IMG/VR virus record: IMGVR_UViG_3300046009_007677
Location: 1-22,609 of that record
Length of the DNA: 22,609 nt
Direction: 5' to 3' (one strand)
DNA from: a virus
The translations under genes were made by a program, and so were the position numbers. Under the pieces are notes generated by a model. The model did no database searches. It was given only the letters and a program-made list of their open reading frames with translations, and was not told the origin of the DNA. Positions 1-20,012 of this stretch are shown piece by piece (the stretch's first letter is position 1; each line of letters opens with the position of its first letter).

Positions 1-1251
1 GACATCAAACAATGGTTAACTGATATGAATTATTCAGTAGCCAGTAACGGAGCTGTATACCGCAATGATAAGCGAGGATTCTTACCAACCATTCTAGAAA
101 AATGGTTTGATGAGCGTGTTATTTACAAAGATAAGCGTGATACATTTGAGGTAGGAACAGAAGAATATAAATTTTATGATGCCATGCAGTTAACGCAAAA
201 AGTATTGCTTAATTCATTTTATGGTGTGTTAGGATTAAAAACATTTCGATTCTATGATTTAGATAATGCCGGGGCAATTACAGCAGTTGGTCAAAGCATT
301 ATTAAATTCTCAGCAAAAGTTATTAACAACTATTACAAGAAAGAATTAGGAACAGATCACTTTGTTAATGCATCTGGAGATAAAGCTGAGTTTGCATTCT
401 ATACGGATACAGATTCAACGTTTTGTAGCAGCGAACCACTAATTAAACACAGATTCCCGGGATGTAATACTGAGGATGAACAGTTTATGATTGAACAAAC
501 AAATGCAATTGCATCTGAAATTCAGCAAACTGTGAATACCATGTACGATCAATATGCAAAAGTGTTCCACAATACAACTAAACACCGTTTCCAAATCAAG
601 CAAGAATATATTGCTAAATCTGGTTTATGGATTGCCAAGAAAAGATATGCTCAATGGGTTATTTTTAAAGAAGGTAAACCTACGGATAAATTGGATATTA
701 AAGGATTAGATGTTGTAAGATCAAGTTTCCCGGAAGATTTTAAAAAGATCATGAAAGAAACATTGTGGTATATTCTTAAAGGCAAAGACAAACAAACTAC
801 TTCCACATTGATACATGATTTCAAAAGTAACATTAAAAAATCAGAAGTGTTGAATGTAATGAAGAATTCAAGTGTTAAAGAATTATCCAAATACATTCGA
901 GGTCGAAAATCGTTTTCTGGATTTATAAAAGGTACTACGGCACATGCAAAAGCAGCAATCAATTTTAATGATATGCTTTCAACATTGTCAACTGATATTC
1001 TACCAATTAAAGACGGTGAAAAAATCAAATGGGGCTACATGGTAAACAATCCATATGGGTTTGAAACTTTGGCATTGCGAGGCTATCAAGATCCACCGGA
1101 AATAGTTGAGTTTGCAAAACAGTATATTGATCACACTAAAATGTTTACATCTGATTTGAGTAACAAGTTCAATGATTTTTATGCCGCAATGGGTTGGGGA
1201 CAGTTACCGGAAAATAATAACGCTAAAAAGTTCTTTTCATTTGGGAAATAA
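1..1251 (+). CDS. 43: Family B DNA polymerase, C-terminal part (T4 gp43-like), 5' truncated by window
   Basis: This is the palm and thumb portion of a replicative family B DNA polymerase. The reading frame is open from base 1, so the true start lies upstream of the window; the ATG at 25 is internal. Motif B (NSFYG) is encoded from about 211 and catalytic motif C (YTDTDST, with the metal-binding aspartates) from 400. A KKRYAQ stretch (from about 649) matches the conserved KKxY element, and IKGTTAHAKAA resembles the thumb of T4 gp43. The last residues (AKKFFSFGK) look like the short hydrophobic clamp-binding peptide at the gp43 C-terminus. The sliding clamp and clamp-loader genes downstream support a T4-type replisome. 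The exonuclease domain, if present, is outside the window. Confidence 0.95.
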   Translation, partial: DIKQWLTDMNYSVASNGAVYRNDKRGFLPTILEKWFDERVIYKDKRDTFEVGTEEYKFYDAMQLTQKVLLNSFYGVLGLKTFRFYDLDNAGAITAVGQSIIKFSAKVINNYYKKELGTDHFVNASGDKAEFAFYTDTDSTFCSSEPLIKHRFPGCNTEDEQFMIEQTNAIASEIQQTVNTMYDQYAKVFHNTTKHRFQIKQEYIAKSGLWIAKKRYAQWVIFKEGKPTDKLDIKGLDVVRSSFPEDFKKIMKETLWYILKGKDKQTTSTLIHDFKSNIKKSEVLNVMKNSSVKELSKYIRGRKSFSGFIKGTTAHAKAAINFNDMLSTLSTDILPIKDGEKIKWGYMVNNPYGFETLALRGYQDPPEIVEFAKQYIDHTKMFTSDLSNKFNDFYAAMGWGQLPENNNAKKFFSFGK

Positions 1252-1287: not shown

Positions 1288-1731
1288 ATGTACGGAAAGA
1301 AACAGTGGCGTGGCCTAGAGGTAGAAGGACGATATTCAGATATAATGACATTCTTTGTCAGAGATTTAGTTGACAACAAACTAGTTGTAAAAGAATACAA
1401 CGAATATCCACATTATTATTTTACTATTGAATACATGAAACAAATTCATAGTAACGTTAATCCGAAATGCGTATCAATCATTCGAGATATTTTAGATACA
1501 ACTAATTGTGCAATTACAATCGAAGCCGATACGGTTACTTTAAAGAGCATTCCGGTGGACCTAGTTAATAGATGCCACATTATTTATCGCATACAAGATC
1601 CTGCAGTACAACTGCTAAAAGATACCGATACATTAAGTATTGATGCTGGTTGGTATCGTGTTCATCAAATTACCAAGTGTAACATGATGGAAATTAAGCC
1701 AGATAACTATAAATTCGATGAAGAACTATGA
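1288..1731 (+). CDS. Hypothetical protein (147 aa)
   Basis: I do not recognise this protein. It is a soluble, mixed alpha/beta sequence with no signal peptide or membrane segment. It is rich in aromatic and charged residues near the N-terminus (NEYPHYYF at about 38-45) and carries four scattered cysteines without a clear metal motif. It follows the polymerase after a 36-base gap holding a possible promoter element, and its stop overlaps the next start (ATGA at 1728-1731), so it is probably translationally coupled to the QueD-like gene. It may therefore belong with the putative base-modification genes rather than with replication, but nothing in its sequence shows that. Confidence 0.75.
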   Translation: MYGKKQWRGLEVEGRYSDIMTFFVRDLVDNKLVVKEYNEYPHYYFTIEYMKQIHSNVNPKCVSIIRDILDTTNCAITIEADTVTLKSIPVDLVNRCHIIYRIQDPAVQLLKDTDTLSIDAGWYRVHQITKCNMMEIKPDNYKFDEEL

Positions 1732-2078
1732 AATATAGTGTAGTAGTAACATTTAGCATCGAAGGCTTTCACAATTGGCCAGATGCAAAAGAAGTATTCC
1801 CAGAAGTAGCATTCCTATCAGATCGACACCGTCATATGTTTGGATTCCGTTGTTATGCAACAGTAACACATACAGATCGAGATGAAGAATTTATTTTGTT
1901 AAACCGAAAGATACAAAAATCGCTTCGAATTGGTTTCTCAAAGGAATCAACTAATGTATTAGAATTTGGTTCTATGTCATGTGAAATGATTGGTGAGTGG
2001 TTGCTAGAAGCATTTTCATCTTTGTATAAAGTTGAAGTTTGGGAAGATTGGGAAAACGGAGCAATAATTGAAAGATAA
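1728..2078 (+). CDS. QueD / 6-pyruvoyl-tetrahydropterin synthase-like T-fold protein
   Basis: The 116 aa product matches the layout of the tetrahydropterin synthase/QueD family, whose members act on a GTP-derived pterin in queuosine, 7-deazaguanine and pterin synthesis. The N-terminal strand ends in GFH (H15), followed by RHRHMF (H34, H36); together these look like the three zinc histidines. The C-terminus has the family-like helix GSMSCEMIGEWLLEAF and strand KVEVWED with E106, at the position of the pterin-binding glutamate. The cysteine that QueD carries four residues before the first HxH histidine is absent (L30 here), so the chemistry may differ or be lost. It overlaps its upstream neighbour by four bases and sits one gene from a DpdA-like transglycosylase, consistent with 7-deazaguanine metabolism. 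Family assignment is from pattern matching by eye. Confidence 0.65.
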   Translation: MKYSVVVTFSIEGFHNWPDAKEVFPEVAFLSDRHRHMFGFRCYATVTHTDRDEEFILLNRKIQKSLRIGFSKESTNVLEFGSMSCEMIGEWLLEAFSSLYKVEVWEDWENGAIIER

Positions 2079-2079
2079 T

Positions 2080-3282
2080 ATGAGAAAAGTATTTTACTTT
2101 GGGCTAGAACCCCTTAAGGCTCGATATACTTACCAATTGAGTAAGGAATGGATGCCAGCCACATTTGCGCCGTATAAAACAGCCGGCGAATTAGAATTTA
2201 TCGATATTCCAGGAGATTTCGATCCAGACCAGCAAATTAAAGTTGGAGCTGTGTTAGATGCAGTTGGTCGAGGTAAATTTGCTATGAGTCAATGTAGCAA
2301 TTTCTTAGACATGATTAATAACGATCAAGTTAAAGATGGCGATGTAATCTTCCTGCAGGATTATTGGACTCCGGGAATGGATGCAATTTGGTATGCATTA
2401 GATTTGTATGGCATCAAAGTTAAAGTTTATGCAATGATCCATGCACAAAGTGTTGACGAGTATGATTTTACTTGGCCGATGCGTAACTGGATGCGTCATT
2501 ATGAATTAGGCTTAGATGAACGAATGACAGCAATCTTTGTTGGATCTACAATTCATAGAGACCAATTACGTCAAGCAGGATTTAAAGCACCAATCCATGT
2601 AGTATCATTGCCATTGCATCATGCCATGACTTTGGCTAAATTGCCTAATTATTCAGACGCATTACAACATGGTTTGATTAAAAAGAAAAACAAAGTAGTA
2701 TTTTCAAGTCGATTAGACAAAGAAAAAAATCCATTCTTCATGTTGCAAGTTGCTGAGGAATTCTTAGAAAATATGCCAAACTATACATGGCACGTGACAA
2801 CTTCCGGTAAATCATTCAAATCAATGTTGCCAGGTGTAATTGAAGAAATGAATGCTTTAGCCCAAAGACAACCTAGATTCAAATTGTTAAGCAATCTAAC
2901 AAAAGAAGAATATTACACGGAATTAGCAACTGCAAAGATTCAATTCAATAGTTCATTGCAAGATTATGTATCATGGACCGTATTAGAATCCACAGCATTT
3001 GGTTGCGATGTTGTATTTCCAAATTTTAGATCGTTTCCAGAATTTATTCCAGCACATCAAATGTATCAACCATTCCAAGTACAAGATGCGGTAAACACAT
3101 TAATGAATTGTATATTTAAACTAGAGATTTCTAGTGCAACTTATAATTTTGCAGAAATTGCAGATATTGGCCGAAGAATGGAGGCATACATTATTGCAAA
3201 TGATTATCAACAAGAAATCAATGTTTGGCACGAGCTGGAATATTGTAAATATTTATTAAAACAACAAGGTTACAATGAGTAA
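2080..3282 (+). CDS. GT4-like (GT-B fold) glycosyltransferase inside the replication block
   Basis: The 400 aa protein looks like a retaining GT-B glycosyltransferase. The second Rossmann half begins with KVVFSSRLDKEKNPF (about 205-219), the typical start of the GT4 donor-binding domain, and is followed near 298-321 by a VLESTAFGCDVV segment and FRSFPEFIP, which occupy the position of the donor-binding E-x7-E region. The N-terminal half (FGLEPLKARYTYQL) would bind the acceptor. I chose ATG 2080, one base after the upstream stop, over a TTG at 2068 inside the upstream gene. It lies between the QueD-like and DpdA-like genes, away from the glycan cluster at 12-22 kb. That placement suggests a DNA-base or nucleotide acceptor, but the substrate is not shown by the sequence. 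Confidence 0.8.
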   Translation: MRKVFYFGLEPLKARYTYQLSKEWMPATFAPYKTAGELEFIDIPGDFDPDQQIKVGAVLDAVGRGKFAMSQCSNFLDMINNDQVKDGDVIFLQDYWTPGMDAIWYALDLYGIKVKVYAMIHAQSVDEYDFTWPMRNWMRHYELGLDERMTAIFVGSTIHRDQLRQAGFKAPIHVVSLPLHHAMTLAKLPNYSDALQHGLIKKKNKVVFSSRLDKEKNPFFMLQVAEEFLENMPNYTWHVTTSGKSFKSMLPGVIEEMNALAQRQPRFKLLSNLTKEEYYTELATAKIQFNSSLQDYVSWTVLESTAFGCDVVFPNFRSFPEFIPAHQMYQPFQVQDAVNTLMNCIFKLEISSATYNFAEIADIGRRMEAYIIANDYQQEINVWHELEYCKYLLKQQGYNE

Positions 3283-4528
3283 AAAGTTTATTTACTACCC
3301 ATCACTGTCAGCAGGATCGATGGTCTCAGCCTTTAAAAAGGACACAAAGTTTACCGATGGTACTACGATGCGTTTCTTTTCAAAAGAATATCCTGAGGAA
3401 TGGAGGCATCCATATTTTCTAATCACAGCTGGTCACCATTATAAGAAAATGGACTTCCGTCAGCAAATGGGATTAGATGATGAAGTATTAGTGTTTGGTG
3501 ATTCTGGAGGATTCCAAATTGCAACCGGAGCATTGAAATGGGATTCAACAATTCGCGAAAAGATCTTTCATTGGTTAGAAGCCAATAGTGATGTTGCAGC
3601 AAATTTAGATATTCCACCACGAGTAACATTTGAAAATAGATTCCAAGATTCTATGGATATTTCATTTGATAACTTTAAATGGTTTGAGAAACATCAATCA
3701 GGTAAAACTAAATTCCTGAATGTGATTCAAGGAACATACAGTGAGGAATACAATACATGGTATCATAAATTCAAAGATTTTGATTTTAATGGTTGGTGTA
3801 TTGGAGGTCCTAAAAAATTAGTTGACTTCATGTATGTGGTTGCATTAATGTTGAAAGAACGTGAATTTGAAAAGAAACATGTAGAATTCATACATTTACT
3901 AGGAATAAGCAAAATATCAGATTTCTTTATTTTGTCAACCTTGCAAAAGTTATTGAATGAGTTAACTGATGGCAGAGTTCAATTGTCTACGGATTCATCA
4001 TCTCCAGGTCAATATCCAGTATATGGAACATATCTTCATTCAACAAATTATAAAACACAAACCTTTACGGAATTGTATTTTCCTAAGAATGCTGAGTATC
4101 GTAGAAAATCTCATGCTAGACAAGGCAAAGAAGGTGAAATTACAATTGACAAAACAAAACATGTACCTTGCAGTATAGAATGTCCAGCATGTCGTGATTT
4201 TACATATGAATACTTAGGTGGAAAAACACCAGAAGGATTGTGTCGTAATTCACAAGAAGGAATGCCTAGAATGGTTGTGCATAACACTCACTTGTATGTT
4301 AATATGGCAAAAGATGTTGACAAACTAGTTGATAGTCATGTGGAATTGTTGGAAACTGCTATCCCAAGTGAATTATTCAATGTGATTCTTTCACTACATG
4401 AAATGTTTGCAGATCCAGACAAAGCTATGCAAATATACTCAACATATGTTAAAACATATAAAAAATTCGGAGGCGATTCTATATCAACAACGGATGCCGA
4501 AAACTTTAATAAATACTTTAAATTTTAA
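3275..4528 (+). CDS. dpdA: 7-deazaguanine DNA transglycosylase, TGT-like (DpdA family)
   Basis: This 417 aa protein has the tRNA-guanine transglycosylase fold signatures: GDSGGFQ (75-81, D76 as the expected proton-handling aspartate), LNVIQGT (148-154), CIGG (175-178), HLLGIS (207-212), and STDSSSPGQ with D240 as the likely nucleophile. A zinc site follows: C299, C303 and C306, plus the histidine of VHNTH (H336). In tRNA enzymes the spacing is CxCxxC; here it is CxxxCxxC. Phage and bacterial DpdA proteins use this fold to swap guanine for a 7-deazaguanine in DNA. The start overlaps the glycosyltransferase gene by eight bases, and the gene sits just before the sliding clamp. A tRNA-modifying role is the main alternative, but the phage replication context and the neighbouring QueD-like gene favour DNA. 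Confidence 0.82.
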   Translation: MSKKFIYYPSLSAGSMVSAFKKDTKFTDGTTMRFFSKEYPEEWRHPYFLITAGHHYKKMDFRQQMGLDDEVLVFGDSGGFQIATGALKWDSTIREKIFHWLEANSDVAANLDIPPRVTFENRFQDSMDISFDNFKWFEKHQSGKTKFLNVIQGTYSEEYNTWYHKFKDFDFNGWCIGGPKKLVDFMYVVALMLKEREFEKKHVEFIHLLGISKISDFFILSTLQKLLNELTDGRVQLSTDSSSPGQYPVYGTYLHSTNYKTQTFTELYFPKNAEYRRKSHARQGKEGEITIDKTKHVPCSIECPACRDFTYEYLGGKTPEGLCRNSQEGMPRMVVHNTHLYVNMAKDVDKLVDSHVELLETAIPSELFNVILSLHEMFADPDKAMQIYSTYVKTYKKFGGDSISTTDAENFNKYFKF

Positions 4529-4540
4529 TCAAATAATAAA

Positions 4541-5248
4541 ATGGAAAAAAGCAAATTACAATCATTCATCAATCGCTACTATTTGGCAGGGAATTGTGAA
4601 GCAGTTATTTTAAAAGAAGATACATCGGGAATCAATTGTGAATTGATTGATATGGATCAAACCGTTGTAGGTAAAATTCAATGGAAAACAACTCCATTCA
4701 TGAAAGGTTCATTAGGAATCAATCATACCGGAACATTGACAAAGATGCTAGGAGCATTGGGTGAAAACATCAATATTGATGTAAAAGATTCATCTGGTAA
4801 GAATTATGCAATGAAAATTACAGAAGGCAATACTCAAGTAACTTTCATGTTAGCGGATACCACAGTTATTCCAGCAGTGCCAACTATCAATGCTGAGCCT
4901 GATTATGTTGTAACGATTCCAGTAAATGATGAATTCATTAACAAATTTATCAAAGCCAAAAATGCAATTCCAGATGCAAAGAATTTTGCAATTCAAGTTC
5001 AAAACGGCAAAATCAAATTCATCATCAATTATTCCACAGTGAATGCTGATAATATTTCATTTGAAATGGATGGCGGTAAAGATCCAATCGAGCCAATTTG
5101 TTTCTCAGCTGACAAACTCAAAGAAATTTTAGTTGCAAATAAAGGCGATGCTGGCCAATTGCATATCTCAACCGAAGGATTGGCTAGAATCAATTTCTCA
5201 GGTGCTGATTTCGATTCAACTTATTGGTTAGTTCAATTACAAAACTAA
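4541..5248 (+). CDS. 45: Sliding clamp, DNA polymerase processivity factor (T4 gp45-like)
   Basis: The 235 aa product is close to the length of T4 gp45 (228 aa) and has the look of a two-domain clamp of repeated beta-sheet units. The pattern runs from an N-terminal helix (SKLQSFINRYYLAG) through a central FMLADTTVIPAVP linker to a C-terminal half ending in an edge strand (STYWLVQLQN). Sequence similarity to T4 gp45 is low, so the call rests on length, fold-like pattern, and position beside the polymerase, gp44 and gp62 genes. It would form a ring on DNA that tethers the polymerase through its C-terminal hydrophobic peptide. It starts 12 bases after dpdA, without a Shine-Dalgarno sequence. Confidence 0.8.
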   Translation: MEKSKLQSFINRYYLAGNCEAVILKEDTSGINCELIDMDQTVVGKIQWKTTPFMKGSLGINHTGTLTKMLGALGENINIDVKDSSGKNYAMKITEGNTQVTFMLADTTVIPAVPTINAEPDYVVTIPVNDEFINKFIKAKNAIPDAKNFAIQVQNGKIKFIINYSTVNADNISFEMDGGKDPIEPICFSADKLKEILVANKGDAGQLHISTEGLARINFSGADFDSTYWLVQLQN

Positions 5249-5679: not shown

Positions 5680-6606
5680 ATGTACGGAAACACAGAAAAT
5701 ACGTTGTGGGTTGAATCATTTCGCCCAAGCACATTAGAAGGATATATTGGAAATGAACATATCATTGAAAAAGTTGGTATCTTTATCAATAATGGCGATG
5801 TTCCTCACTTATTGTTTTACGGTCCGGCAGGCACGGGTAAGACCACGTTGGCAAAAATCATTGCCGGCAGTGTGGACGCCGATGTCATGTATATAAATGC
5901 ATCAGATGAAAACTCAGTAGACGCAGTTCGAGACAAGATCAAAAGATATGCATCGACAGTAGGATTTCGTCGTTGGAAAATCATTATTCTAGATGAAAGT
6001 GATTATTTAACACCGAATGCTCAAGCAGCACTTCGTAATTTGATGGAGACATATAGCAAAACAACTCGTTTTATTTTAACATGCAACTATGTTGAAAAGA
6101 TTATTGACCCAATTCAATCACGTTGTCAAACATTTGCAATTACACCGCCAAATAAAACAGATGTAGCAAAACGATTAGTTACAGTGTTGCAAGAAAATGG
6201 AGTTGAATTTGATATCAAAGATGTTGCTGCAATAATCAATGCATCATATCCAGATATTCGTCGAGCTATCAATGCCGCACAAGCATCTGTAGTTAATGGT
6301 AAATTGCAATTGGATAAGGCAAGTGCAATTCAAGCAAATTATCTAACTGAAGTACTCGATGTGTTGAAAAATGCTAAAGATAAGAAAGCGGCATTTACCA
6401 AAATTCGTCAAATTATTGCTGATAGCAAAGTTAGAGATTTTACGCCAATGTACACATTCTTGTATGATAGCTTAGATGAGTTTGCTCACGGACATATTGC
6501 ACCATGCATTTTGATCATAGCAGAATCTCAATTTAAAGATGCTAGCGTGGTTGACAAAGAAATCAACATCATGGCTATGTTTGTAAATTTATTGGGAGAA
6601 ATATGA
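5680..6606 (+). CDS. 44: Clamp loader large subunit, AAA+ ATPase (T4 gp44-like)
   Basis: This 308 aa AAA+ protein loads the sliding clamp onto primer-template DNA using ATP. It has Walker A GPAGTGKTT (48-56), Walker B IIILDESDYL (101-110), a sensor-like FILTCNY (131-137), and the SRC motif (147-149) with the arginine finger that completes the neighbouring subunit's site. A lid segment (YPDIRRAINAAQ) and a helical C-terminal collar follow. T4 gp44 is 319 aa. A TTG at 5659 would give a longer product but lies inside dut; ATG 5680 gives the usual N-terminus (LWVESFRP close to the start). Confidence 0.95.
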   Translation: MYGNTENTLWVESFRPSTLEGYIGNEHIIEKVGIFINNGDVPHLLFYGPAGTGKTTLAKIIAGSVDADVMYINASDENSVDAVRDKIKRYASTVGFRRWKIIILDESDYLTPNAQAALRNLMETYSKTTRFILTCNYVEKIIDPIQSRCQTFAITPPNKTDVAKRLVTVLQENGVEFDIKDVAAIINASYPDIRRAINAAQASVVNGKLQLDKASAIQANYLTEVLDVLKNAKDKKAAFTKIRQIIADSKVRDFTPMYTFLYDSLDEFAHGHIAPCILIIAESQFKDASVVDKEINIMAMFVNLLGEI

Positions 6607-6650
6607 GTATACAATTAAAGCAAAAAAATAATGTCAGCACCATATTATAA
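6603..6650 (+). other. Possible 15-codon mini-ORF overlapping the gp44 stop
   Basis: An ATG at 6603 overlaps the gp44 stop (ATGA) and opens a 15-residue frame (MSIQLKQKNNVSTIL) ending at 6650, past the next gene's ATG at 6631. It crosses a run of seven A residues at about 6624-6630. It may be a coupling mini-cistron, a frameshift-joined N-terminus of the next gene, or chance. Confidence 0.2.
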
Positions 6651-6843
6651 ATCTAATATAACAATTGTTTTTAAAACTTCTAATCGCAGCAATGCTCGAA
6701 CTAAAATGAAAACATTTAGGAATAAAAGCATTGATGATGTGTTAGAAAAGAAATTGCCAGGAATTCCTGACACTGCAATTATATTAGAAATGGGAATTGG
6801 CGGAATATTCGAAGAAAAATATAAACTTAAGTATAAACTATAA
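6631..6843 (+). CDS. Small hypothetical protein (70 aa)
   Basis: I do not recognise this small basic protein. It has an N-terminal strand-like segment (NITIVFK), then a highly charged stretch rich in Arg and Lys, then a short conserved-looking end (GIPDTAIILEMGIGGIFEEKYKLKYKL, quoted in parts: GIPDTAIILEMGIGG and FEEKYKLKYKL). No signal peptide, membrane segment or cysteine is present. It lies between the two clamp-loader subunit genes, 24 bases after gp44 and two bases before the gp62-like gene, so it is co-transcribed with them. A small nucleic-acid-binding or regulatory role would fit the charge but is a guess. Confidence 0.6.
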   Translation: MSAPYYKSNITIVFKTSNRSNARTKMKTFRNKSIDDVLEKKLPGIPDTAIILEMGIGGIFEEKYKLKYKL

Positions 6844-6845
6844 AC

Positions 6846-7298
6846 ATGGCGGACGAGAAAAAGGGTGCAACAATTTTTGATTTCATTGACGGAGTAACAC
6901 ACAAAAAGAAAGAATGGAGCAAATGGTCCGAAACGGATCAATCAAAATTTGCTCCATACATTGTTAACAGATGGTTATCTATGCGTCAGGACTTGACAGA
7001 AATTATTAATGAGTTACAAACATATACAATCGGATTGTTACGACCAAAAGAAACATATCGTCTTTACTATGAATTCCTGCCAACTAGCAAAGGGTTTGCA
7101 AAATACATAAAAGGCAAAAAAGACGAAAAGTTTTCAGACAAATTAATCGCACAGGTAGCAGAGCATTACAGCATTGGTAAATCAGAAGCATCAGACTACG
7201 TGGAATTAATGGATCAAACAAGTTGCACCCGTCTGCTAGGTTTATATGGATATACTGAAAGTGAAATAAAAACAATGATTAAAGGAGTAAAAAAATGA
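6846..7298 (+). CDS. 62: Clamp loader small subunit (T4 gp62-like)
   Basis: The 150 aa product resembles the gp62 proteins of marine T4-like phages, the non-ATPase subunit that forms the clamp loader with gp44. Features I recognise are an N-terminal FDFIDGVTHKKKEW segment, a conserved FAPYIVNRWLSM block (35-46), and a middle block FLPTSKGFAKYIKGKK (77-92). The rest is helical with a charged tail. T4 gp62 is longer (187 aa) and quite divergent, so the call rests on the environmental relatives and the position downstream of gp44. It overlaps the next gene by four bases (ATGA), and its 3' end (AAAGGAG at 7281-7287) carries that gene's ribosome binding site. Confidence 0.68.
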   Translation: MADEKKGATIFDFIDGVTHKKKEWSKWSETDQSKFAPYIVNRWLSMRQDLTEIINELQTYTIGLLRPKETYRLYYEFLPTSKGFAKYIKGKKDEKFSDKLIAQVAEHYSIGKSEASDYVELMDQTSCTRLLGLYGYTESEIKTMIKGVKK

Positions 7299-7540
7299 CA
7301 CCAGAACAATTTACCTACTGGTTGCAAGGATTTATAGAATTAAGCAACCCAACCCATTTAACTACTAGACAGCTTGAAATCGTAAAAGATCATCTAGCAT
7401 CAGTATTTGATAAAAAAACACCAGACCGAAATACGGTTGGATGGACTCCAGAATGGCCGGTAATGCCAGGAACAACTGCACCTGTAGGTCCATATACATA
7501 TCCATCGATATCGGATCCACGGACAACAATAATTTGTTAA
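7295..7540 (+). CDS. Small phage hypothetical protein with YWLQGF motif (81 aa)
   Basis: The N-terminus (MTPEQFTYWLQGFIEL, then LTTRQLEIVKDHL) matches a small conserved phage protein family that I have seen under hypothetical names; its function is unknown to me. Two short helices (about 3-18 and 23-38) are followed by a proline-rich, probably disordered tail with an IIC end. It has one of the clearest Shine-Dalgarno sequences in the window, AAAGGAG seven bases before the ATG, lying within the upstream gp62-like gene. Two bases separate it from the next gene. Confidence 0.7.
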   Translation: MTPEQFTYWLQGFIELSNPTHLTTRQLEIVKDHLASVFDKKTPDRNTVGWTPEWPVMPGTTAPVGPYTYPSISDPRTTIIC

Positions 7541-7542
7541 TC

Positions 7543-7758
7543 ATGAGTATTAATACCGAATCACATTACAAAGGCAAAGATAGTCTTTATAAGTTTGCGG
7601 AAGAGTGGCAATTGAATACCTATGAATTTGACATCATTAAACGCATTGTTAGATGCCGGCATAAAGGTCAGTTCAATCAGGATTTAATTAAAACAAAAAA
7701 CTTAATTGACATTTACTTAAAAGAAAAAGGCGAAATGCGGTTGGATATTGAAAAATAA
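7543..7758 (+). CDS. DUF3310-like small protein (71 aa)
   Basis: The protein fits the DUF3310 pattern common in phages: an SHYKGKDSLYKF start, a central FDIIKRIVRCRHKGQ helix (29-43), and a DLIKTKNLIDIYL helix (47-59). Members are often annotated as nucleotide-kinase-like, but I know of no firm activity. The frame stays open upstream to 7441, inside the previous gene; ATG 7543, two bases after the upstream stop, gives the family's normal N-terminus and is preferred. It is the last gene of the uninterrupted replication run before a 28-base gap with a promoter-like element. Confidence 0.7.
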   Translation: MSINTESHYKGKDSLYKFAEEWQLNTYEFDIIKRIVRCRHKGQFNQDLIKTKNLIDIYLKEKGEMRLDIEK

Positions 7759-7760
7759 TT

Positions 7761-7772
7761 TCATATTATATA
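7761..7772 (+). promoter_or_regulatory. Putative A/T promoter element before the membrane-protein gene
   Basis: The 28-base gap holds TTTCATATTATATA followed by a run of A residues to the ATG at 7787. The core resembles the elements before 1288 and 9015. It marks the boundary between the replication genes and the membrane-protein pair. Confidence 0.35.
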
Positions 7773-7786
7773 AAAAAAAAAAGAAA

Positions 7787-8008
7787 ATGAAAAATATTTT
7801 TGATATCCAATTGAATTGGAAACTGCTTGTCATAACATTGTTAGCATACATGTTTGCAATGTCAATGTTTTTTGAGTATTGTATCAATCGAGAAATTAAC
7901 GAATATGTAGGTGGCGCAGCCGGAGTCATTGCATTGATTTACACAGTCTGGCAGATTGAATTAATTATTAAATTTATTAACAAAACAATTAAAAACAACG
8001 TAAAATGA
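7787..8008 (+). CDS. Small two-helix membrane protein (73 aa)
   Basis: This is a predicted integral membrane protein of unknown function. Two hydrophobic segments are visible, about residues 11-28 (WKLLVITLLAYMFAMSMF) and 41-62 (VGGAAGVIALIYTVWQIELI), joined by a short polar loop, with a basic C-terminal tail. I chose ATG 7787; an in-frame TTG at 7748 would only add a lysine-rich extension read from the A/T-rich gap. Its stop overlaps the start of the SPFH gene (ATGA at 8005-8008), so the two are translationally coupled and may act together in the host membrane. Confidence 0.7.
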   Translation: MKNIFDIQLNWKLLVITLLAYMFAMSMFFEYCINREINEYVGGAAGVIALIYTVWQIELIIKFINKTIKNNVK

Positions 8009-8907
8009 TTACAGGTATTATTATTGGAATTTTCCTTATTATCGCAGGAATTAAAATTGTTAGTGCTATCTCACAAGACAGTACAAAAGGTCTAATGACA
8101 GGCATTGCAATTGCGGTTGTAGGTGTCGTTATTGCATTCATTCAACCATACAGTGTTGAAAAAATTGACAGTGGTTACAAAGGACTAAAAATTAGTTTGA
8201 TTGGATCACAACGTGGCGTAACTAACTATCAATACAAGACAGGTTGGGTAGTATACAATTCATGGACTGAACAAGTTAAAGAATTTCCATTATTCCAGCA
8301 ACATATCGAGTATGATGACCAAATAGTTATTACAAAAGGCGGATTCTCAGCAACTATTAAACCAACCTTTAACTATTCCTTGAAGGAAAACAATATTGGG
8401 GACATGTTTGTGAATCTTCGATTAGACACCAAATCTATTGAACAAGGATGGCTAAAAAATGCAATTGTCGGATCAGTTAATGATGAAGCAAATAAATGGG
8501 AAGTCGATTCAATCTTTAGTCATCGTCAGGAGTTTGAAGCTGCAATTGTTGTAGAGTGTAACAAGCGATTAACACGATGGTTTGATGTATCTCAACTAAG
8601 AACAAATATTACACCTCCAGAAGCATTGCAGGAAGCTATTATATCTAAAACAAAAGCAATCCAACAAGCAGAAGCATCTGAGCAACAAGCATTGACAGCA
8701 ATTGCTGAGGGTAAGAGAAAAGTAGCAGTAGCAAGAGCAGACTCAGCTGAGACAATTATCAATGCCAAAGCAGCAGCACTAGCAATTAAGTTGAAACAAA
8801 TGGAATTGACGCCAATGTATATTGAGTATACAAAAGCCAGCAAATGGGACGGAGTATTACCAACCACCGTGGCAGGAGGCGCAGGAACATTCTTGAATGT
8901 TAAATAA
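8005..8907 (+). CDS. SPFH/band-7 (prohibitin-like) membrane protein
   Basis: The 300 aa protein begins with two hydrophobic segments (about 2-20 and 30-47), followed by a band-7-like domain (VEKIDSGYKGLKI onward, to about 200). A long alanine/glutamate-rich helix (about 205-266, with QQAEASEQQALTAIAEGKRK and ADSAETIINAKA) is characteristic of prohibitin/stomatin oligomers. The C-terminus (YIEYTKASKWDGVLPTTV) also matches prohibitin-type proteins. SPFH proteins form ring or cage scaffolds on membranes. Phage copies exist but their role is unclear; membrane protection, lysis timing or superinfection exclusion are all possible. It is coupled to the small membrane protein upstream and followed by a strong terminator. 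Confidence 0.85.
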   Translation: MITGIIIGIFLIIAGIKIVSAISQDSTKGLMTGIAIAVVGVVIAFIQPYSVEKIDSGYKGLKISLIGSQRGVTNYQYKTGWVVYNSWTEQVKEFPLFQQHIEYDDQIVITKGGFSATIKPTFNYSLKENNIGDMFVNLRLDTKSIEQGWLKNAIVGSVNDEANKWEVDSIFSHRQEFEAAIVVECNKRLTRWFDVSQLRTNITPPEALQEAIISKTKAIQQAEASEQQALTAIAEGKRKVAVARADSAETIINAKAAALAIKLKQMELTPMYIEYTKASKWDGVLPTTVAGGAGTFLNVK

Positions 8908-8927
8908 CTAAACCACAATATATAATG

Positions 8928-8960
8928 AAAAGCCGTAGCAGAAATGTTGCGGCTTTTTTT
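8928..8960 (+). terminator. Rho-independent terminator with GAAA tetraloop
   Basis: A 13-bp stem (AAAAGCCGTAGCA pairing with TGTTGCGGCTTTT, two G-T wobbles) closes a GAAA tetraloop at 8941-8944 and runs into seven T residues ending at 8960. It lies 20 bases after the SPFH stop and ends that transcription unit. It is the only clear hairpin terminator I found in the window. Confidence 0.92.
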
Positions 8961-8969
8961 ACTGTTTGG

Positions 8970-8998
8970 TTGGTTTTAATTGATTTTTTTCATATATT
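8970..8998 (+). promoter_or_regulatory. Putative sigma70-like promoter for the transglutaminase-like gene
   Basis: Just after the terminator, TTGGTT (8970-8975) and TATATT (8993-8998) are 17 bases apart, a standard -35/-10 spacing. The -10 lies within TTCATATATTATA, another copy of the recurring A/T element. The ATG at 9015 follows after an AAAGAG sequence that could serve as a ribosome binding site. Confidence 0.5.
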
Positions 8999-9014
8999 AT
9001 AAAAAAAGAGCAGT

Positions 9015-9533
9015 ATGAAAAAGACATTGTTTGTATTATTAGGAGTTTCAATTTTATTTTATGTTACATGCAGTTTGACAGTAACTTATTTATATGATTA
9101 TAAAGTTCAAAAAATTATTTCGAACACACCACAAGCATTTAGTTGTGATGCGCAGTGCAAAACTGATGATATAGATGAATTAATGCAATATGCATTAGAT
9201 TATACACTTACTAATTTAGAATTTGAACTAAATAGTTCTGGCAATTTAAGTGTATATGCTATTGACAAATCTAAATTAGCCAATTGTATTGGATATGTTA
9301 CATATTATAATGCAGTTTTAAATAAACTATTAAATGACAACCATATCAAGAATGTTAAATTGCAACATGCTCGAGCAATAATCACGGTTGCAGGTAATGA
9401 TATACATGATGTCTTTACGGATCCATCATTTAAAAATCATGACATTAGTATAGTAACAATTGATAATGAACAAGTCTACTATGTAGATCCAAGCCTATCG
9501 GAAATGGGAGTTAATCTAATTATTCAGAAATAA
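9015..9533 (+). CDS. Membrane-anchored or secreted transglutaminase-like cysteine-protease-fold protein
   Basis: The 172 aa product starts with MKK and a hydrophobic segment (about 4-27) that acts as a signal sequence or membrane anchor; no signal-peptidase site is obvious. The mature part has the transglutaminase-like triad arrangement: C91 at the start of a helix (NCIGYVTYYNAVLNKLL), H142 in KNHDISIVTID, and D158 in YYVDPS, matching the C...H...(Y)VDP pattern of that superfamily. Members include proteases and amidases as well as cross-linking enzymes. A role in the host envelope (lysis, exclusion or peptide cleavage) is possible but unproven. Its stop lies one base from the stop of the minus-strand gene, and it forms a single-gene unit between terminator and convergent gene. 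Confidence 0.6.
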   Translation: MKKTLFVLLGVSILFYVTCSLTVTYLYDYKVQKIISNTPQAFSCDAQCKTDDIDELMQYALDYTLTNLEFELNSSGNLSVYAIDKSKLANCIGYVTYYNAVLNKLLNDNHIKNVKLQHARAIITVAGNDIHDVFTDPSFKNHDISIVTIDNEQVYYVDPSLSEMGVNLIIQK

Positions 9534-9534
9534 T

Positions 9535-10698
9535 TTATTTTTTGATACCTGGCTTCGGAGTCGTTGATTTCGGAGCTGTGTATCTTAAGATAATATTAAC
9601 CGGGAATCCATTGTATCCATTTAATTCACGTAGATTTGCAGCTTTACGAATAATATGATATGGAGTCGCTTCACCTTTTTGGAAGTTCTTTATGCTATCA
9701 GTGAATTCCTTTATAATTTGTTCATTAGACATTTTATATTCTCTAGAATTAAAATCATAATTATCTTTAACAACAATTGTATTAACTCCAGATTTATATA
9801 CATTTGGTTTTGCAATTTCTCCCAATGTATACATAAATGTTGTTGCTAAATTAGGAGACACCATATTCATAAGTGTTCCTTTAGTTCCATATTTCTTTGC
9901 ATCATTTGCAGCACCACCTTTAGTTAATGATAATGCTCCGGTTGCACCAACCGATTTCCAATAATTGTAGTTAAATCCATTTTCTAAACCGTGAGCTAAA
10001 CACGCATTAAGTAAAAATTTACGCTCATCATCATGTAAATCTGCTTCAGTAAAAACTTCGGTACGTCCAATTAAAAATTCAAAGAAACATCTAAGATGCA
10101 ACGGCAATTGTTTCATAATCAAAGGTTTCAATGGAAACAACATTGTATCCAATGTAGATTTACCCTGGAATCGTTGTTGTTCTTTTTCCTTTCTTTGCAA
10201 CTCTGGATGGTACAGTTGAATTAATTTTAATTCTGTCTTACTTACAGGTACGCCTGATGTAACATTACCTGATAATTTATCCCAATAAGATGGATTTGAT
10301 TTTGATACCACTTCGAAATCAGAAAATGGCATAATTTTCAATATTGTCCAGTTCCAGTCTGTTTGAGGTAACACCGAAATTAATGATCGTATTATTTCTA
10401 AACGATCTACATTATTCAAAAACGATCGAAGGTATTCTCCAATACCTCTACCAGAAGTTAATTTTTGTAATTCTTTATTTACTAGTGCGTATTGATTAAT
10501 ATGCTTGATATTTTTAATGATAGCATTTTTAACAGCTGTTTCATCATCATTAAAGTATCCTTTTGAATCATATATCATTTTGGCTACTGTTTTAGCATTA
10601 AACGGAGAAACTACACCCGTTTTATCTACAGGGGCTTGCTTGAATACGGCGTTACGGCCACCCAATTGTTCGTTTAATAAAGATTTTAATTGTATCAT
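9535..10698 (-). CDS. Unrecognised phage protein (387 aa), only minus-strand gene
   Basis: I do not recognise a catalytic family. The N-terminal peptide MIQLKSLLNEQ is of a type I have seen at the start of virion-associated proteins in marine and T4-like phages (from memory). Residues about 37-108 (AKMIYDSKGYFNDDETAVKNA, then HINQYALVNKELQ and GIGEYLRSFLNNVD) form a helical module that I associate with phage structural or internal proteins. The C-terminus is basic and proline-rich (PKSTTPKPGIKK). There is no signal peptide or membrane segment. I chose ATG 10698 over an in-frame ATG at 10731 because it gives this N-terminus and leaves a 53-base divergent promoter region. It is convergent with the 9015 gene (stops one base apart) and divergent from the nuclease gene. 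Confidence 0.75.
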   Translation of the reverse strand: MIQLKSLLNEQLGGRNAVFKQAPVDKTGVVSPFNAKTVAKMIYDSKGYFNDDETAVKNAIIKNIKHINQYALVNKELQKLTSGRGIGEYLRSFLNNVDRLEIIRSLISVLPQTDWNWTILKIMPFSDFEVVSKSNPSYWDKLSGNVTSGVPVSKTELKLIQLYHPELQRKEKEQQRFQGKSTLDTMLFPLKPLIMKQLPLHLRCFFEFLIGRTEVFTEADLHDDERKFLLNACLAHGLENGFNYNYWKSVGATGALSLTKGGAANDAKKYGTKGTLMNMVSPNLATTFMYTLGEIAKPNVYKSGVNTIVVKDNYDFNSREYKMSNEQIIKEFTDSIKNFQKGEATPYHIIRKAANLRELNGYNGFPVNIILRYTAPKSTTPKPGIKK

Positions 10699-12377: not shown

Positions 12378-13841
12378 ATGGAGTTATCAAAAAAGAAAAA
12401 AATCCTATTACTAGGAGATGATTTCCGTTTGCCATCTGGTATCGGAACTATCAGCAAAGAAATTATTTTAAACACAGTTAAAGAGTTTGATTGGGTTCAA
12501 TTAGGAGCTGCAATCAATCACCCGGATGCCGGACAAGCATTTGATCTATCTGCTGAGATAATCAAAGAAACAGGCATATCAGATGCATCAGTTAAATTGA
12601 TTCCATGGAACGGATATGGCGATAGAAATATCTTATTTGCTATTATCAACCAGGAACAGCCAGATGCAATTCTGCATTTTACTGATCCACGTTATTGGAC
12701 ATGGTTGTATGCAATCGAGCATGAAATAAAAACAACATTCAATATTCCAATTACATATTATTCTATCTGGGATGATTTACCATATCCAATGTGGAACGCA
12801 CCTTTTTATGCGAGCTGTGATATGATTATGGGAATTAGCAAGCAATCAGACAATATCCATAGAGAAGTGCTTAAACAGAATGGATTTGAGGTAATTAACT
12901 ATGATGATTCCTGGTATATGCCAACAGCCAAGAAATGGAACCAGATACTTACCGGATATGTTCCTCATGGGTTAAATCACAATGTATTCAAACCATTAAT
13001 CTCAAATGATCCAGCATATGTTGCAATGCATAAAAAAATCAAGCAAGATAACAAAGTTGATTTTGTTGTGTTTTGGAATAATCGCAATATTCGAAGAAAA
13101 CAGCCAGGTGATGTGATTTTAGCATTTAAAACATTTGTAGACACATTGCCAATCGAACAACAAAGCAAAATAGCATTGTTAATGCACACTCAAGCTGTTG
13201 ATGAAAATGGTACTGATCTAAGAGCAATTGCAAAAACTTTGGCTCCTACATGCAAAATTATCTTTTCAGAGCAAAAAGTTGCTTCAGCTGAACTAAATGC
13301 AATGTACAATGTTGCTGACGTTACAATCAATATTGGTAGCAACGAAGGTTGGGGACTAAGTAGTACCGAAGCAATCCTAGCAGGTTGCCCAATTATTAAC
13401 AATGTTACCGGAGGTCTTCAAGATCAATGTGGATTCGAAGATGAAAATGGAGAATGGCTTCGTTTTGATGGTCAATTTTCAACTAATCACACCGGACGAT
13501 TCAAAAAACATGGAACATGGGTAAAACCAGTATTTCCAAGCAATAGATCGTTACAAGGATCGCCAGCAACTCCATATATCTTTGATGATCGAGTTCAATT
13601 CGAACAAGTTGCCGAAGCAATTGCATATTGGTACACAATGACCGAAGAAAATAGAGCTGCATGCGGTTTTGAAGGAAGAACATGGGCATTAGCTAATGGA
13701 TTAACGGCGGAACAGATGGGTAACAAAATGATTTCAATGTTTAGAGATTTATTTGCAATGCATAGAGAATTAAGACCATTATTCACAGTAACAAAAGTAG
13801 AAGCTCCTAAATACGAACAAACAGGAATAGTAGCACAATGA
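12378..13841 (+). CDS. GT4-family glycosyltransferase (487 aa)
   Basis: This is a large GT-B glycosyltransferase. The acceptor domain starts at KILLLGDDFRLPSGIGTIS (8-26), whose glycine-rich loop is typical of GT4 enzymes. The donor domain begins around VVFWNNRNIRRKQPGDV (230-246) and carries the E-x7-E nucleotide-sugar motif at E323 and E331 (NEGWGLSSTEAILAG). At 487 aa it is longer than most GT4 enzymes; a polar insertion at about 360-400, just after the donor motif, accounts for much of the excess. The acceptor and sugar are unknown. It opens the long sugar cluster and overlaps the next GT4 gene by four bases. Confidence 0.9.
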   Translation: MELSKKKKILLLGDDFRLPSGIGTISKEIILNTVKEFDWVQLGAAINHPDAGQAFDLSAEIIKETGISDASVKLIPWNGYGDRNILFAIINQEQPDAILHFTDPRYWTWLYAIEHEIKTTFNIPITYYSIWDDLPYPMWNAPFYASCDMIMGISKQSDNIHREVLKQNGFEVINYDDSWYMPTAKKWNQILTGYVPHGLNHNVFKPLISNDPAYVAMHKKIKQDNKVDFVVFWNNRNIRRKQPGDVILAFKTFVDTLPIEQQSKIALLMHTQAVDENGTDLRAIAKTLAPTCKIIFSEQKVASAELNAMYNVADVTINIGSNEGWGLSSTEAILAGCPIINNVTGGLQDQCGFEDENGEWLRFDGQFSTNHTGRFKKHGTWVKPVFPSNRSLQGSPATPYIFDDRVQFEQVAEAIAYWYTMTEENRAACGFEGRTWALANGLTAEQMGNKMISMFRDLFAMHRELRPLFTVTKVEAPKYEQTGIVAQ

Positions 13842-15070
13842 GAAAAGTAGTTATAGCGTCGCCAGTAGCGACACAAAGCGGTTATGGTCATCACGCACGC
13901 GAAGTGATAACAAATATTATAGAACAACGAGGATCTGAATGGGATGTAAAACTAGTTTCATTGCCATGGGGACATACTCCGATGACTTATCCAATTTCGG
14001 TGGATTTGCAACTTCGTATAATTCCATTGCCATTAACAGAACAACCAGATGTATGGATTCAAATTTCAGTTCCAAATGAGTTTCAGGCTGTTGGAAAATA
14101 CAATATTGGTGTTACGGCAGGTACCGAAGGAGATATTTGTCCAACACAGTGGATTGAAACCATCAACAAAATGCAATTGATAATTGTACCTAGTGAATTC
14201 ACTCGCACCACATTTGAGGAAACGGCACGTCGCAACAACTTATTGATTACAACTCGAATTGAAGTAGTTCCAGAATATTTTGATGAAACAGTATATAAAT
14301 CATCAACTGATACTGTATTATCTGAATTAGATTCAGTAACTGAATCATTTGCCTTCCTATCAGTTGGACATTGGTTGCAAGGCCAATTAGGCGAAGACCG
14401 AAAAAACATAGGAGCCATGGTACATTGCTTTTTCCATGCATTTAAAGATGTTAAAGATGCACCAGCACTTATCCTAAAAACATCAGGTGCAACATATAGT
14501 ATTATGGACCGAATGGATATTGAAGGCCGAATCAATCAAGTTCGAGATATGTACGGTACTGCAAAATTACCCAATGTTTATTTAGTGCATGGAGATTTAA
14601 CGGATGCTGAAATGAATTCACTATACAATCATCCAAAAGTCAAAGCATTTGTGTCATTTACAAAAGCAGAAGGATTTGGAAGACCATTATTAGAATTCTC
14701 AGCAACAAGCAAACCAATTATTGCGCCGCATTATTCAGGTCAAGCAGATTTCCTCAAAAAGGATTTTATTTGTGCACTACCAGGCCAATTAACACCGATC
14801 CATGCATCAGCACAAAATGAGTTTTTAATTGGTGATGCAAAATGGTTTAGTTTTGATTATGGATATGCTTCCGCCATGATGAAAGATGTTCGTAAAAACT
14901 ACAAGAAGTGGGCTGAATTGGCAAAACGTCAACGCTATTTTGTTAATTCAACATTTACTAAAACGGCTGTTGCTGAAGTATACAAACAAGTGTTAGAAAC
15001 AGTGGATACTGGATTAGAATCAATTCCAAAACCATTGGAATTAAAACTCCCGAAGCTTCAAAAGATTTGA
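13838..15070 (+). CDS. GT4-family glycosyltransferase (410 aa)
   Basis: The 410 aa protein is a second GT-B enzyme. The N-terminus KVVIASPVATQSGYGHHARE (3-22) is the acceptor-domain loop, VPSEFTRTTFEE (117-128) is a common GT4 interdomain element, and the E-x7-E donor motif is at E278 and E286 (KAEGFGRPLLEF). The product ends with a short lysine/proline-rich tail. Its start overlaps the upstream GT4 gene (ATGA), so the two are probably made together and may add successive sugars. The 29-base gap after it holds another A/T element, ending this two-gene unit. Confidence 0.92.
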   Translation: MRKVVIASPVATQSGYGHHAREVITNIIEQRGSEWDVKLVSLPWGHTPMTYPISVDLQLRIIPLPLTEQPDVWIQISVPNEFQAVGKYNIGVTAGTEGDICPTQWIETINKMQLIIVPSEFTRTTFEETARRNNLLITTRIEVVPEYFDETVYKSSTDTVLSELDSVTESFAFLSVGHWLQGQLGEDRKNIGAMVHCFFHAFKDVKDAPALILKTSGATYSIMDRMDIEGRINQVRDMYGTAKLPNVYLVHGDLTDAEMNSLYNHPKVKAFVSFTKAEGFGRPLLEFSATSKPIIAPHYSGQADFLKKDFICALPGQLTPIHASAQNEFLIGDAKWFSFDYGYASAMMKDVRKNYKKWAELAKRQRYFVNSTFTKTAVAEVYKQVLETVDTGLESIPKPLELKLPKLQKI

Positions 15071-15071
15071 T

Positions 15072-15099
15072 TTGTCAACTAAATTCATTATAATATAAT
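15072..15099 (+). promoter_or_regulatory. Putative A/T promoter element abutting the 15100 start
   Basis: TTCATTATAATATAAT runs directly into the ATG. TTGTCA (15072-15077) could be a -35 with a 16-base spacer to TATAAT at 15094-15099, but that would place the transcription start inside the gene; the copy at 15089-15094 would give a start close to the ATG. Either a leaderless message or a non-sigma70 element is implied. Confidence 0.35.
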
Positions 15100-15747
15100 A
15101 TGAAAATAAGTTACGCAGTTACGGTATGCAATGAGGTCGAAGAAATTAAACGGCTCATTGCATTCCTGCTAAAACATAAACGAGAACAAGATCAGATTTT
15201 AGTCTTAATGGATTTACAAAAATCAGATTTCTTTGATAAGATTCCTGAAAAGGAACAAGTGCATGAGTTTATCATGCAACATCATGTACAAGCTCATTTA
15301 CAGGTTGCATTTAGATCATTAAACAATGATTTTGCTACATTTAAGAACAATATAGCTTCATATTGTACTGGAGATTATATTTTTCAAATAGATGCTGACG
15401 AATTGCCGCATGCAAAGTTAATTGAAATACTGCCAGCATTATTAGAAGAAAATTGCGATTGTGATGTATTTTTAGTGCCACGTGTTAACACAGTAGAAGG
15501 CATGGATCAGGATCATATGCAACAATGGGGCTGGGCAGTCAATGAAAAAGGATGGATTAATTGGCCAGACAATCAATGGCGAATTTGGAAAAATAAGCCT
15601 GAGATAAAATGGATAAACAAAGTGCATGAACGATTAGATGGTTTTAAATCATACACAGTTTTGCCAGAAATGGAAGAATTTGCATTATACCACCCAAAGA
15701 CAATTGAACGACAAATCAAACAAAATAATTATTACGATACATTATGA
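15100..15747 (+). CDS. GT2-type (GT-A fold) glycosyltransferase (215 aa)
   Basis: The product resembles short GT2 glycosyltransferases. The N-terminus is YAVTVCNEVEEIKRLI, the nucleotide-binding strand and loop of the family, and the metal-binding DxD is in QIDADELP (D98, D100). A later segment, NQWRIWKNKPEIKWINKVHE, matches the acceptor-side region of GT2 enzymes related to LPS core glucosyltransferases. It is compact, with no membrane segment, so it would act in the cytoplasm. The stop overlaps the next start (ATGA), and from here to the window end the genes form a nearly continuous overlapping run. Confidence 0.87.
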   Translation: MKISYAVTVCNEVEEIKRLIAFLLKHKREQDQILVLMDLQKSDFFDKIPEKEQVHEFIMQHHVQAHLQVAFRSLNNDFATFKNNIASYCTGDYIFQIDADELPHAKLIEILPALLEENCDCDVFLVPRVNTVEGMDQDHMQQWGWAVNEKGWINWPDNQWRIWKNKPEIKWINKVHERLDGFKSYTVLPEMEEFALYHPKTIERQIKQNNYYDTL

Positions 15748-16733
15748 AACGTACAATTACATATATTTTTCCAAATTGGTTACATCCAAACAATATTGGT
15801 GATACATTTGTTTCTACATTTATACCTAGGCTATTAAAGAAAATACATACTGATTGTATATTAGAAGTTGTTTGTACCGGAAAATTATACGATATTTTAG
15901 TTTTAGATGAATCAATTGATATATGTAGAAACCCAAACCAAGATGAATTACATTTAGATTTTGTTAATATTGCAATTAATACAAATCAGATAAATAACGA
16001 CTTGAAAATTGTGTATCCAGCATGGCATACAAATTTATTTTCTTTTTGGAAATTACATCATGATTTTTTAACTAATCATTCTAGTGCTAATATCATAACC
16101 GTTAACTTTTTGCTACAATTAGGATTACAAGATTTATTATTTGATGATAGTTTTAATTTTTATCCATATACAAATATACCAAAAATTAAAAATAATAATT
16201 CAATATTAAATTTAGGAATTGTAATATCCACAAAGTTAGCTGGCAAGTCAACACCACATCCTGGTTGTAATGGACTTGGATATCGGTATAAATTAGAATA
16301 TTGGAAACGGTTCGTTGAAGTTATAAAAGAATATTCAGATAAAATAAGAATTCATGAGTTTTCCGAACAGTTTTTAAATATCGGAGATATACATATGGGC
16401 TATACTAATTCATATAAAGAATTAATTACGCAGATAGATTTAATGGATATAGGCGTCTTGTCAGATGGCGGATTACATCACGTTTTTAATTGTAGAAATA
16501 TACCATTAGTATTATTTCAACCTAATATCTTAAGTAAAGTTGAATTTGTAAAATTAAGTAATAGTTATTATCCAGAACATTTACATTTAGATTGTAGGAA
16601 ATCCTGCAGATCATATTATTCAGAAGTATTTAATGTACAAGACTTATCAACATCATGTAACAATGAATGTGAAACTCTAGATCCAGAAGAATTAGCAAAA
16701 TATACAATAAAAATTATAGAACAAAACTTATGA
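15744..16733 (+). CDS. GT9-like (heptosyltransferase-type) glycosyltransferase
   Basis: The 329 aa protein resembles GT9 enzymes, which transfer heptose or related sugars. The N-terminal NIGDTFVSTFIPRLLKK (17-33) matches the family's GD-x-x-x-(S/T)TP start. The donor-site block MDIGVLSDGGLHHVFNC (234-250) and IPLVLF correspond to the disallowed-then-SDxGxxH pattern of GT9, and a C-terminal cysteine set (C284, C288, C305, C309) occurs where many GT9 proteins have one. It is more divergent than its neighbours, and the gene is conspicuously AT-rich. It overlaps both flanking genes by four bases. No phage GT9 substrate can be read from the sequence. Confidence 0.68.
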   Translation: MKRTITYIFPNWLHPNNIGDTFVSTFIPRLLKKIHTDCILEVVCTGKLYDILVLDESIDICRNPNQDELHLDFVNIAINTNQINNDLKIVYPAWHTNLFSFWKLHHDFLTNHSSANIITVNFLLQLGLQDLLFDDSFNFYPYTNIPKIKNNNSILNLGIVISTKLAGKSTPHPGCNGLGYRYKLEYWKRFVEVIKEYSDKIRIHEFSEQFLNIGDIHMGYTNSYKELITQIDLMDIGVLSDGGLHHVFNCRNIPLVLFQPNILSKVEFVKLSNSYYPEHLHLDCRKSCRSYYSEVFNVQDLSTSCNNECETLDPEELAKYTIKIIEQNL

Positions 16734-19307: not shown

Positions 19308-19315
19308 AGAAAAAT

Positions 19316-20011: not shown

Positions 20012-20012
20012 T

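Follow-up and report, generated by a model that had tools for sequence, protein, structure and literature searches.

What do a QueD-like protein, a glycosyltransferase and a DpdA-like protein do together in the middle of a phage replisome operon? The question is raised by a stretch of viral DNA of 22,609 nucleotides (IMG/VR record IMGVR_UViG_3300046009_007677, positions 1 to 22,609; here called the window), a 22.6-kb piece of the viral record whose left edge lies inside the DNA polymerase gene polB. Judging from comparative analysis, we consider it likely that the three genes encode the later part of a pathway by which the phage would put a sugar-bearing 7-deazaguanine in the place of some or all guanines of its DNA. 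Support for this pathway comes from the genes, their folds, conserved active-site residues, precursor genes upstream in relatives, and reciprocal co-occurrence. From these data we infer DNA as the substrate, the reaction of the T-fold protein, glycosylation of the base, the order of the steps, and the sugar with its linkage. In the proposed pathway FolE, QueD and QueE would produce 7-carboxy-7-deazaguanine (CDG). The T-fold protein, by means of the site where the QueD fold binds zinc and guanine, would convert CDG in place of the QueC reaction to preQ0, and this conversion would most likely be a decarboxylation to 7-deazaguanine. The DpdA-like enzyme would then swap guanine in DNA for the modified base, and the GT-B enzyme would attach a sugar to the inserted base. 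The original prediction, namely that the trio makes a glycosylated 7-deazaguanine in phage DNA, has gained strong comparative support, while its QueD step had to be replaced.

The three-gene block and its recurrence

The genes in question and their operon context are the following.

1728-2078, plus strand: T-fold protein of the QueD/PTPS superfamily, phrog_17812 (open reading frame (ORF) calling, homologues, predicted fold)
2080-3282, plus strand: GT-B (GT4-like) glycosyltransferase (Pfam match, conserved residues, co-occurrence)
3275-4528, plus strand: TGT/DpdA-fold transglycosylase (PF01702, predicted fold, conserved residues)
25-1251, plus strand: family B DNA polymerase, 3' part only (context)
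4541-5248, plus strand: DNA polymerase sliding clamp, the next gene of the operon (context)

All three ORFs of the trio are intact by ORF calling and their junctions overlap or abut, in agreement with the earlier description of a T-fold, a GT-B and a TGT-fold gene in front of the clamp. The genes are translationally coupled within the replisome operon, with the polymerase fragment and a small gene of unknown function on the 5' side and the sliding clamp, a dUTPase and clamp loaders on the 3' side. For the glycosyltransferase the gene-calling tool picks a TTG start at 2068, while relatives favour ATG 2080, as predicted before. Relatives of the dpdA-like protein are encoded by 293 viral contigs; among the best 80 of the 293, which were kept, the gene order T-fold, glycosyltransferase, dpdA, clamp recurs. 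Because the glycosyltransferase directly precedes dpdA in 79 of these 80 contigs, the exception being a contig that begins about 70 bases before dpdA, the arrangement is not a matter of chance.

The same association is seen in divergent phages. Relatives of the T-fold protein were gathered with two divergent alignments and their flanks were scored within 3 kb. A DpdA-type gene adjoins them and lies within that distance of 58 of the 65 T-fold genes left after dereplication; FolE, QueD and QueE are often encoded nearby too. The DpdA proteins were assigned to types as follows.

Type F, motif DSGGFQ: the window, PA5oct, Phosso
Type L, motif DSGGLQ: ACP17, X1, BUCT-ZZ01
Type C, motif DSGAF: CAjan-like
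Type S, compact, assigned from motif and profile only: phiST, MA9V-3, D479, Ahp1

The glycosyltransferase accompanies 42 of the 47 DpdA genes that are of types F, L or C, and none of the 11 that are of type S (Fisher 2e-8). Starting from the glycosyltransferase, the T-fold gene is recovered in 78 of 80 loci and a DpdA of type F or L in 74 of 80; in both loci that lack the T-fold gene the glycosyltransferase lies near the contig end. Isolated phages behave likewise, with glycosyltransferase and DpdA of type F or L jointly present in six lineages (the window clade, PA5oct, Phosso, ACP17, BUCT-ZZ01 and X1) and jointly absent from seven phages with the T-fold gene (Fisher 6e-4). Within 50,697 phage records the glycosyltransferase family occurs in 20; the T-fold gene is present in 16 of these, and the remaining four belong to a single lineage of Xanthomonas and Erwinia phages. 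Across 273 kb of flank, no member of the family turned up at a distance of more than 5 kb from a T-fold gene.

The occurrence of the T-fold gene with and without the glycosyltransferase suggests that the T-fold protein makes the base and the glycosyltransferase decorates it. It also lends itself to a different explanation, in which the DNA would carry an unglycosylated CDG-derived base and the glycosyltransferase would decorate a virion or host glycan or a host protein, linked to the other genes solely through a common role in counter-defence. Since T-fold protein and compact DpdA occur without the glycosyltransferase in phiST, MA9V-3, D479, Ahp1 and others, this core works without it, and the window holds several other glycosyltransferases in a downstream sugar cluster. 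However, the family is specific to the module in both search directions, is directly adjacent in many loci, and tracks the DpdA subtype, unlike what would be expected of an unrelated surface glycosyltransferase. We therefore regard this explanation as unlikely. The earlier placement of the glycosyltransferase with the 7-deazaguanine genes rather than with wall glycans is upheld by its co-occurrence with T-fold and DpdA genes in both search directions; other partners were found solely in the Xanthomonas/Erwinia lineage. Membership in the downstream sugar cluster is ruled out by adjacency and reciprocal co-occurrence.

Some further loci may be mentioned here. Compact TGT-like proteins of 259-290 amino acids, annotated as hypothetical, adjoin the T-fold gene but never occur with the glycosyltransferase (loci L007, 6801-7580; L006, 6806-7600; L005, 6695-7552; L093, 6417-7289); they are candidates for a separate DpdA subfamily. 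In locus L230 three consecutive DpdA-like ORFs of the DSGAF type (6197-9726) lie close to a T-fold gene. In Vibrio phage 2.275.O the DpdA is of type F and is accompanied by QueC and by a protein annotated as preQ0 reductase; the glycosyltransferase is absent from this phage, and tblastn searches gave no T-fold match. The sugar cluster of the window (12378-21927) is long and contains several glycosyltransferase-like and methyltransferase-like ORFs, an NAD-dependent epimerase (17879), and the N-terminal and pyrimidine-binding parts of a transketolase as separate ORFs (18687, 19953). It probably serves glycan decoration and is unrelated to the trio.

The T-fold protein and the probable branch from CDG

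Searches of the PDB with the sequences of the T-fold protein (best match 2dj6, E 0.04) and of the TGT-like protein gave nothing significant, and the folds of both were therefore predicted. The AlphaFold model of the T-fold protein, made from 53 homologues, has a predicted local distance difference test (pLDDT) score of 95 and matches E. coli QueD best (4ntk, E 3e-7, template modelling score 0.74). A search of NCBIfam returned no family for this protein, and in the genome collection its gene was seen in two contigs of metagenome-assembled genomes only, which are probably phage. The zinc triad H15, H34 and H36 is invariant in 53 of 53 homologues; E86 and E106 are invariant as well and, in the alignment with PH0634, match glutamates that the PTPS family conserves. 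The position that matches the catalytic cysteine of QueD is occupied by an invariant leucine (L30, 53 of 53) and the Asp-His pair of QueD is absent. In other phages the gene occurs together with complete QueDs. Because the catalytic residues are missing and relatives encode a separate QueD, the T-fold protein is not a QueD, and this function is ruled out for it. What was called QueD-like is so in its fold and its histidine triad, but not as the enzyme that makes the precursor. Going by its fold and residues, the protein should bind a guanine-like ring at a metal but cannot use the QueD mechanism, and it is probably a CDG-processing enzyme that stands in for QueC.

The precursor genes lie upstream of the trio. 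Locus L114 comes from the same record as locus L009, which shares 98-100% identity with the window across the trio. The genes 5' of polB in L114 are folE, queD, a small ORF, queE, and genes for a thioredoxin, a Cpn10 and a hypoxanthine-guanine phosphoribosyltransferase. Of the 16 window-type relatives, 12 encode FolE, QueD and a QueE-like radical SAM protein; the remaining four are fragments, 28 to 60 kb long. No member of the QueC family was found in any of the 16, including contigs of 140, 160 and 169 kb, nor was QueC found near any of the dereplicated T-fold loci. The proposed look beyond the window for folE, queE and queC hence yielded the first two, in relatives, but not the third. With FolE, QueD and QueE present and QueC not found, the phage-encoded pathway stops at CDG, and it is probably from CDG that the pathway branches.

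This gene content would also fit an insertion by DpdA of preQ0 made by the QueC of the host, with the T-fold protein serving in binding or regulation: QueC was not found in the phages, and hosts often have it. That the zinc and glutamate residues are invariant speaks for catalysis instead, and the phages carry FolE, QueD and QueE of their own, so that we give this possibility hardly any credence.

The phage QueD has its own peculiarities. In the window clade (L114, 5916-6377) it keeps the cysteine, His31 and the Asp-His pair, but has HGY for HGH and has lost the first zinc histidine. These losses complement those of the T-fold protein. It might be, then, that the T-fold protein and the HGY-type QueD form one hetero-oligomeric 6-carboxytetrahydropterin synthase, a split QueD. 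The product would be plain CDG, and the glycosyltransferase would act on CDG or on the CDG carboxylate in DNA. Apart from the complementary losses, the frequency of the HGY type (64 of 80 QueDs in T-fold loci) is in favour of such a complex. However, 13 of the 80 are of the HGH type with the zinc motif, and the T-fold gene is therefore kept even where a zinc partner is not needed; we hold a split QueD to be very improbable.

In window-type phages the phosphoribosyltransferase gene (L114, 8072-8581) comes after queE and before polB, and a similar gene adjoins queE in BUCT-ZZ01 (locus L095). The enzyme might salvage the guanine that is released by DpdA.

The transglycosylase, its probable target and the proposed sugar

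The TGT-like protein matches PF01702 (E 1e-6). D76 of the DSGG motif, D112, H207 and D240 are invariant in 29 of 29 homologues, and Q152-G153 is conserved. H336 is present in all homologues, but the CxxxCxxC motif (C299, C303, C306) is confined to a close clade of proteins of about 417 amino acids. A universal zinc site in DpdA was dropped for this reason. Of the signature first noted, GDSGGFQ with D240 and a zinc site, both aspartates are invariant, while the zinc cysteines belong to the close clade only. The label DpdA-like is correct at the level of the fold, and in a profile comparison (hhalign) with a set of phage DpdA proteins (CAjan, nt-1 and ACP17) the match was 93% with E 3e-7. Fold matches nevertheless put tRNA-guanine transglycosylases (TGTs) first: the model (pLDDT 85) matches tRNA TGTs best (2ash, E 4e-10), with DpdA 7ui4 in thirteenth place (E 2e-7).

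It is conceivable, then, that the enzyme acts on tRNA and that a glycosylated queuosine-like base tunes translation. The NCBIfam matches of the protein, like its best fold matches, are tRNA TGTs, and a GT4-type enzyme mannosylates queuosine in animal tRNA. In the relatives, though, the genes sit between DNA polymerase and sliding clamp, and the type L partner has a homologue in the DpdA of Vibrio phage nt-1. We consider a tRNA target improbable; the replisome setting and the homology to DpdA of nt-1-type phages are the reasons why DNA is preferred. No tRNA genes were found in a search of the window. The DNA of nt-1-type phages contains 7-deazaguanines (PMC6884629), and in phage 6E351A 15% of dG is present as dPreQ1 (PMC12028318).

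The glycosyltransferase matches Pfam Glycos_transf_1 with E 1e-5, slightly below the curated cut-off; a QTMAN-type Pfam domain was not matched by the window protein. Its family combines an N-terminal motif, LEPxxxRYTxQ, with R...EK and E/D-x7-E residues of the GT4 type, and R215, E219, K220 and E/D299-x7-E307 are conserved in 24-25 of 26 homologues. Its action on a DNA base is putative and is suggested by the co-occurrence. Of the Xanthomonas/Erwinia lineage, one phage was inspected, Xanthomonas phage PhiXhv-12; it has no T-fold or DpdA gene nearby, and its glycosyltransferase of this family lies beside genes for a GlmS-like protein (glucosamine-6-phosphate synthase) and an LmbE-like deacetylase (locus L274, 5654-8888). 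This locus may represent another sugar modification.

Several points weigh against a sugar-bearing 7-deazaguanine in DNA. Once decarboxylated, 7-deazaguanine offers neither a hydroxyl nor an amine at C7 as acceptor for a sugar, and the predicted fold of the DpdA-like protein is no closer to DpdA than to tRNA TGTs, so that sequence and fold leave the choice between DNA and tRNA undecided. The window itself, which begins inside polB, has no folE, queD or queE, and a host QueC could act on CDG. One glycosyltransferase lineage, in Xanthomonas and Erwinia phages, has neither T-fold nor DpdA nearby, and 7 of the 65 dereplicated loci have no DpdA within 3 kb. The set of loci was picked by likeness to a small number of queries, and its dereplication relied on sequence rather than on a tree.

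As 7-deazaguanine has no heteroatom at C7, the sugar linkage would be unusual. Possible linkages are a C-glycoside at C7, an acyl glycoside of the CDG carboxylate and an attachment at N2. In its most specific form, our proposal would be that a repurposed QueD-fold enzyme removes the carboxyl group of CDG, that 7-deazaguanine takes the place of guanine in the DNA, and that a dedicated GT-B enzyme adds a sugar, possibly directly at carbon 7, which would make a widespread and undescribed class of modification; we put this forward tentatively, as a possibility about which we are more doubtful than confident.

Significance and comparison with known systems

To our knowledge, the sugar-bearing DNA bases known so far are pyrimidines. 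If the proposed pathway exists, glycosylated 7-deazaguanines would join this short list, and attachment at C7 would amount to a C-glycosylated purine in natural DNA. The pathway would account for the conservation of the three-gene block across several jumbo phages and hundreds of phage contigs from the environment. It would add a new family of candidate DNA glycosyltransferases as well as a new enzyme of the QueD fold, and it would give a reason why these phages may withstand many defences that work by restriction or by reading the sequence. The isolates PA5oct, Paride, ACP17, X1, Phosso and BUCT-ZZ01 make the pathway open to direct testing. In the open-access literature, which left out Cui et al. 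2023, we found no description of a glycosylated 7-deazaguanine in phage DNA; no open-access paper was found that links a glycosyltransferase and DpdA in one pathway.

The established 7-deazaguanine bases of phage DNA are dPreQ0, dPreQ1, dG+ and dADG (Hutinet et al. 2019, PMC6884629). The FolE-QueD-QueE-QueC-DpdA system described there shares with the pathway proposed here the FolE/QueD/QueE precursor route and a TGT-fold transglycosylase encoded with replication genes; it differs in that our phages have no QueC, an extra T-fold protein and a dedicated glycosyltransferase. A sugar-bearing 7-deazaguanine is not described in that work (PMC6884629). The alpha- and beta-glucosyltransferases of T4 and other phage DNA glycosyltransferases likewise decorate a modified DNA base, in T4 with a GT-B fold, but enzymes of the T4 type act on hydroxymethyl-pyrimidines, whereas the partner genes here would make a 7-deazapurine. 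QTMAN and QTGAL glycosylate queuosine in animal tRNA. They too place a sugar on a 7-deazaguanine nucleoside once a TGT has inserted the base, but their target is tRNA and the sugar sits on the cyclopentenediol of queuosine. Cui and colleagues reportedly described, in 2023, phages with dDG and dCDG and predicted a CDG decarboxylase, DpdL; a glycosyltransferase is said not to be part of their pathway. These phages share with ours the branch from CDG without QueC, and the T-fold protein is an obvious candidate for a CDG decarboxylase of the DpdL type.

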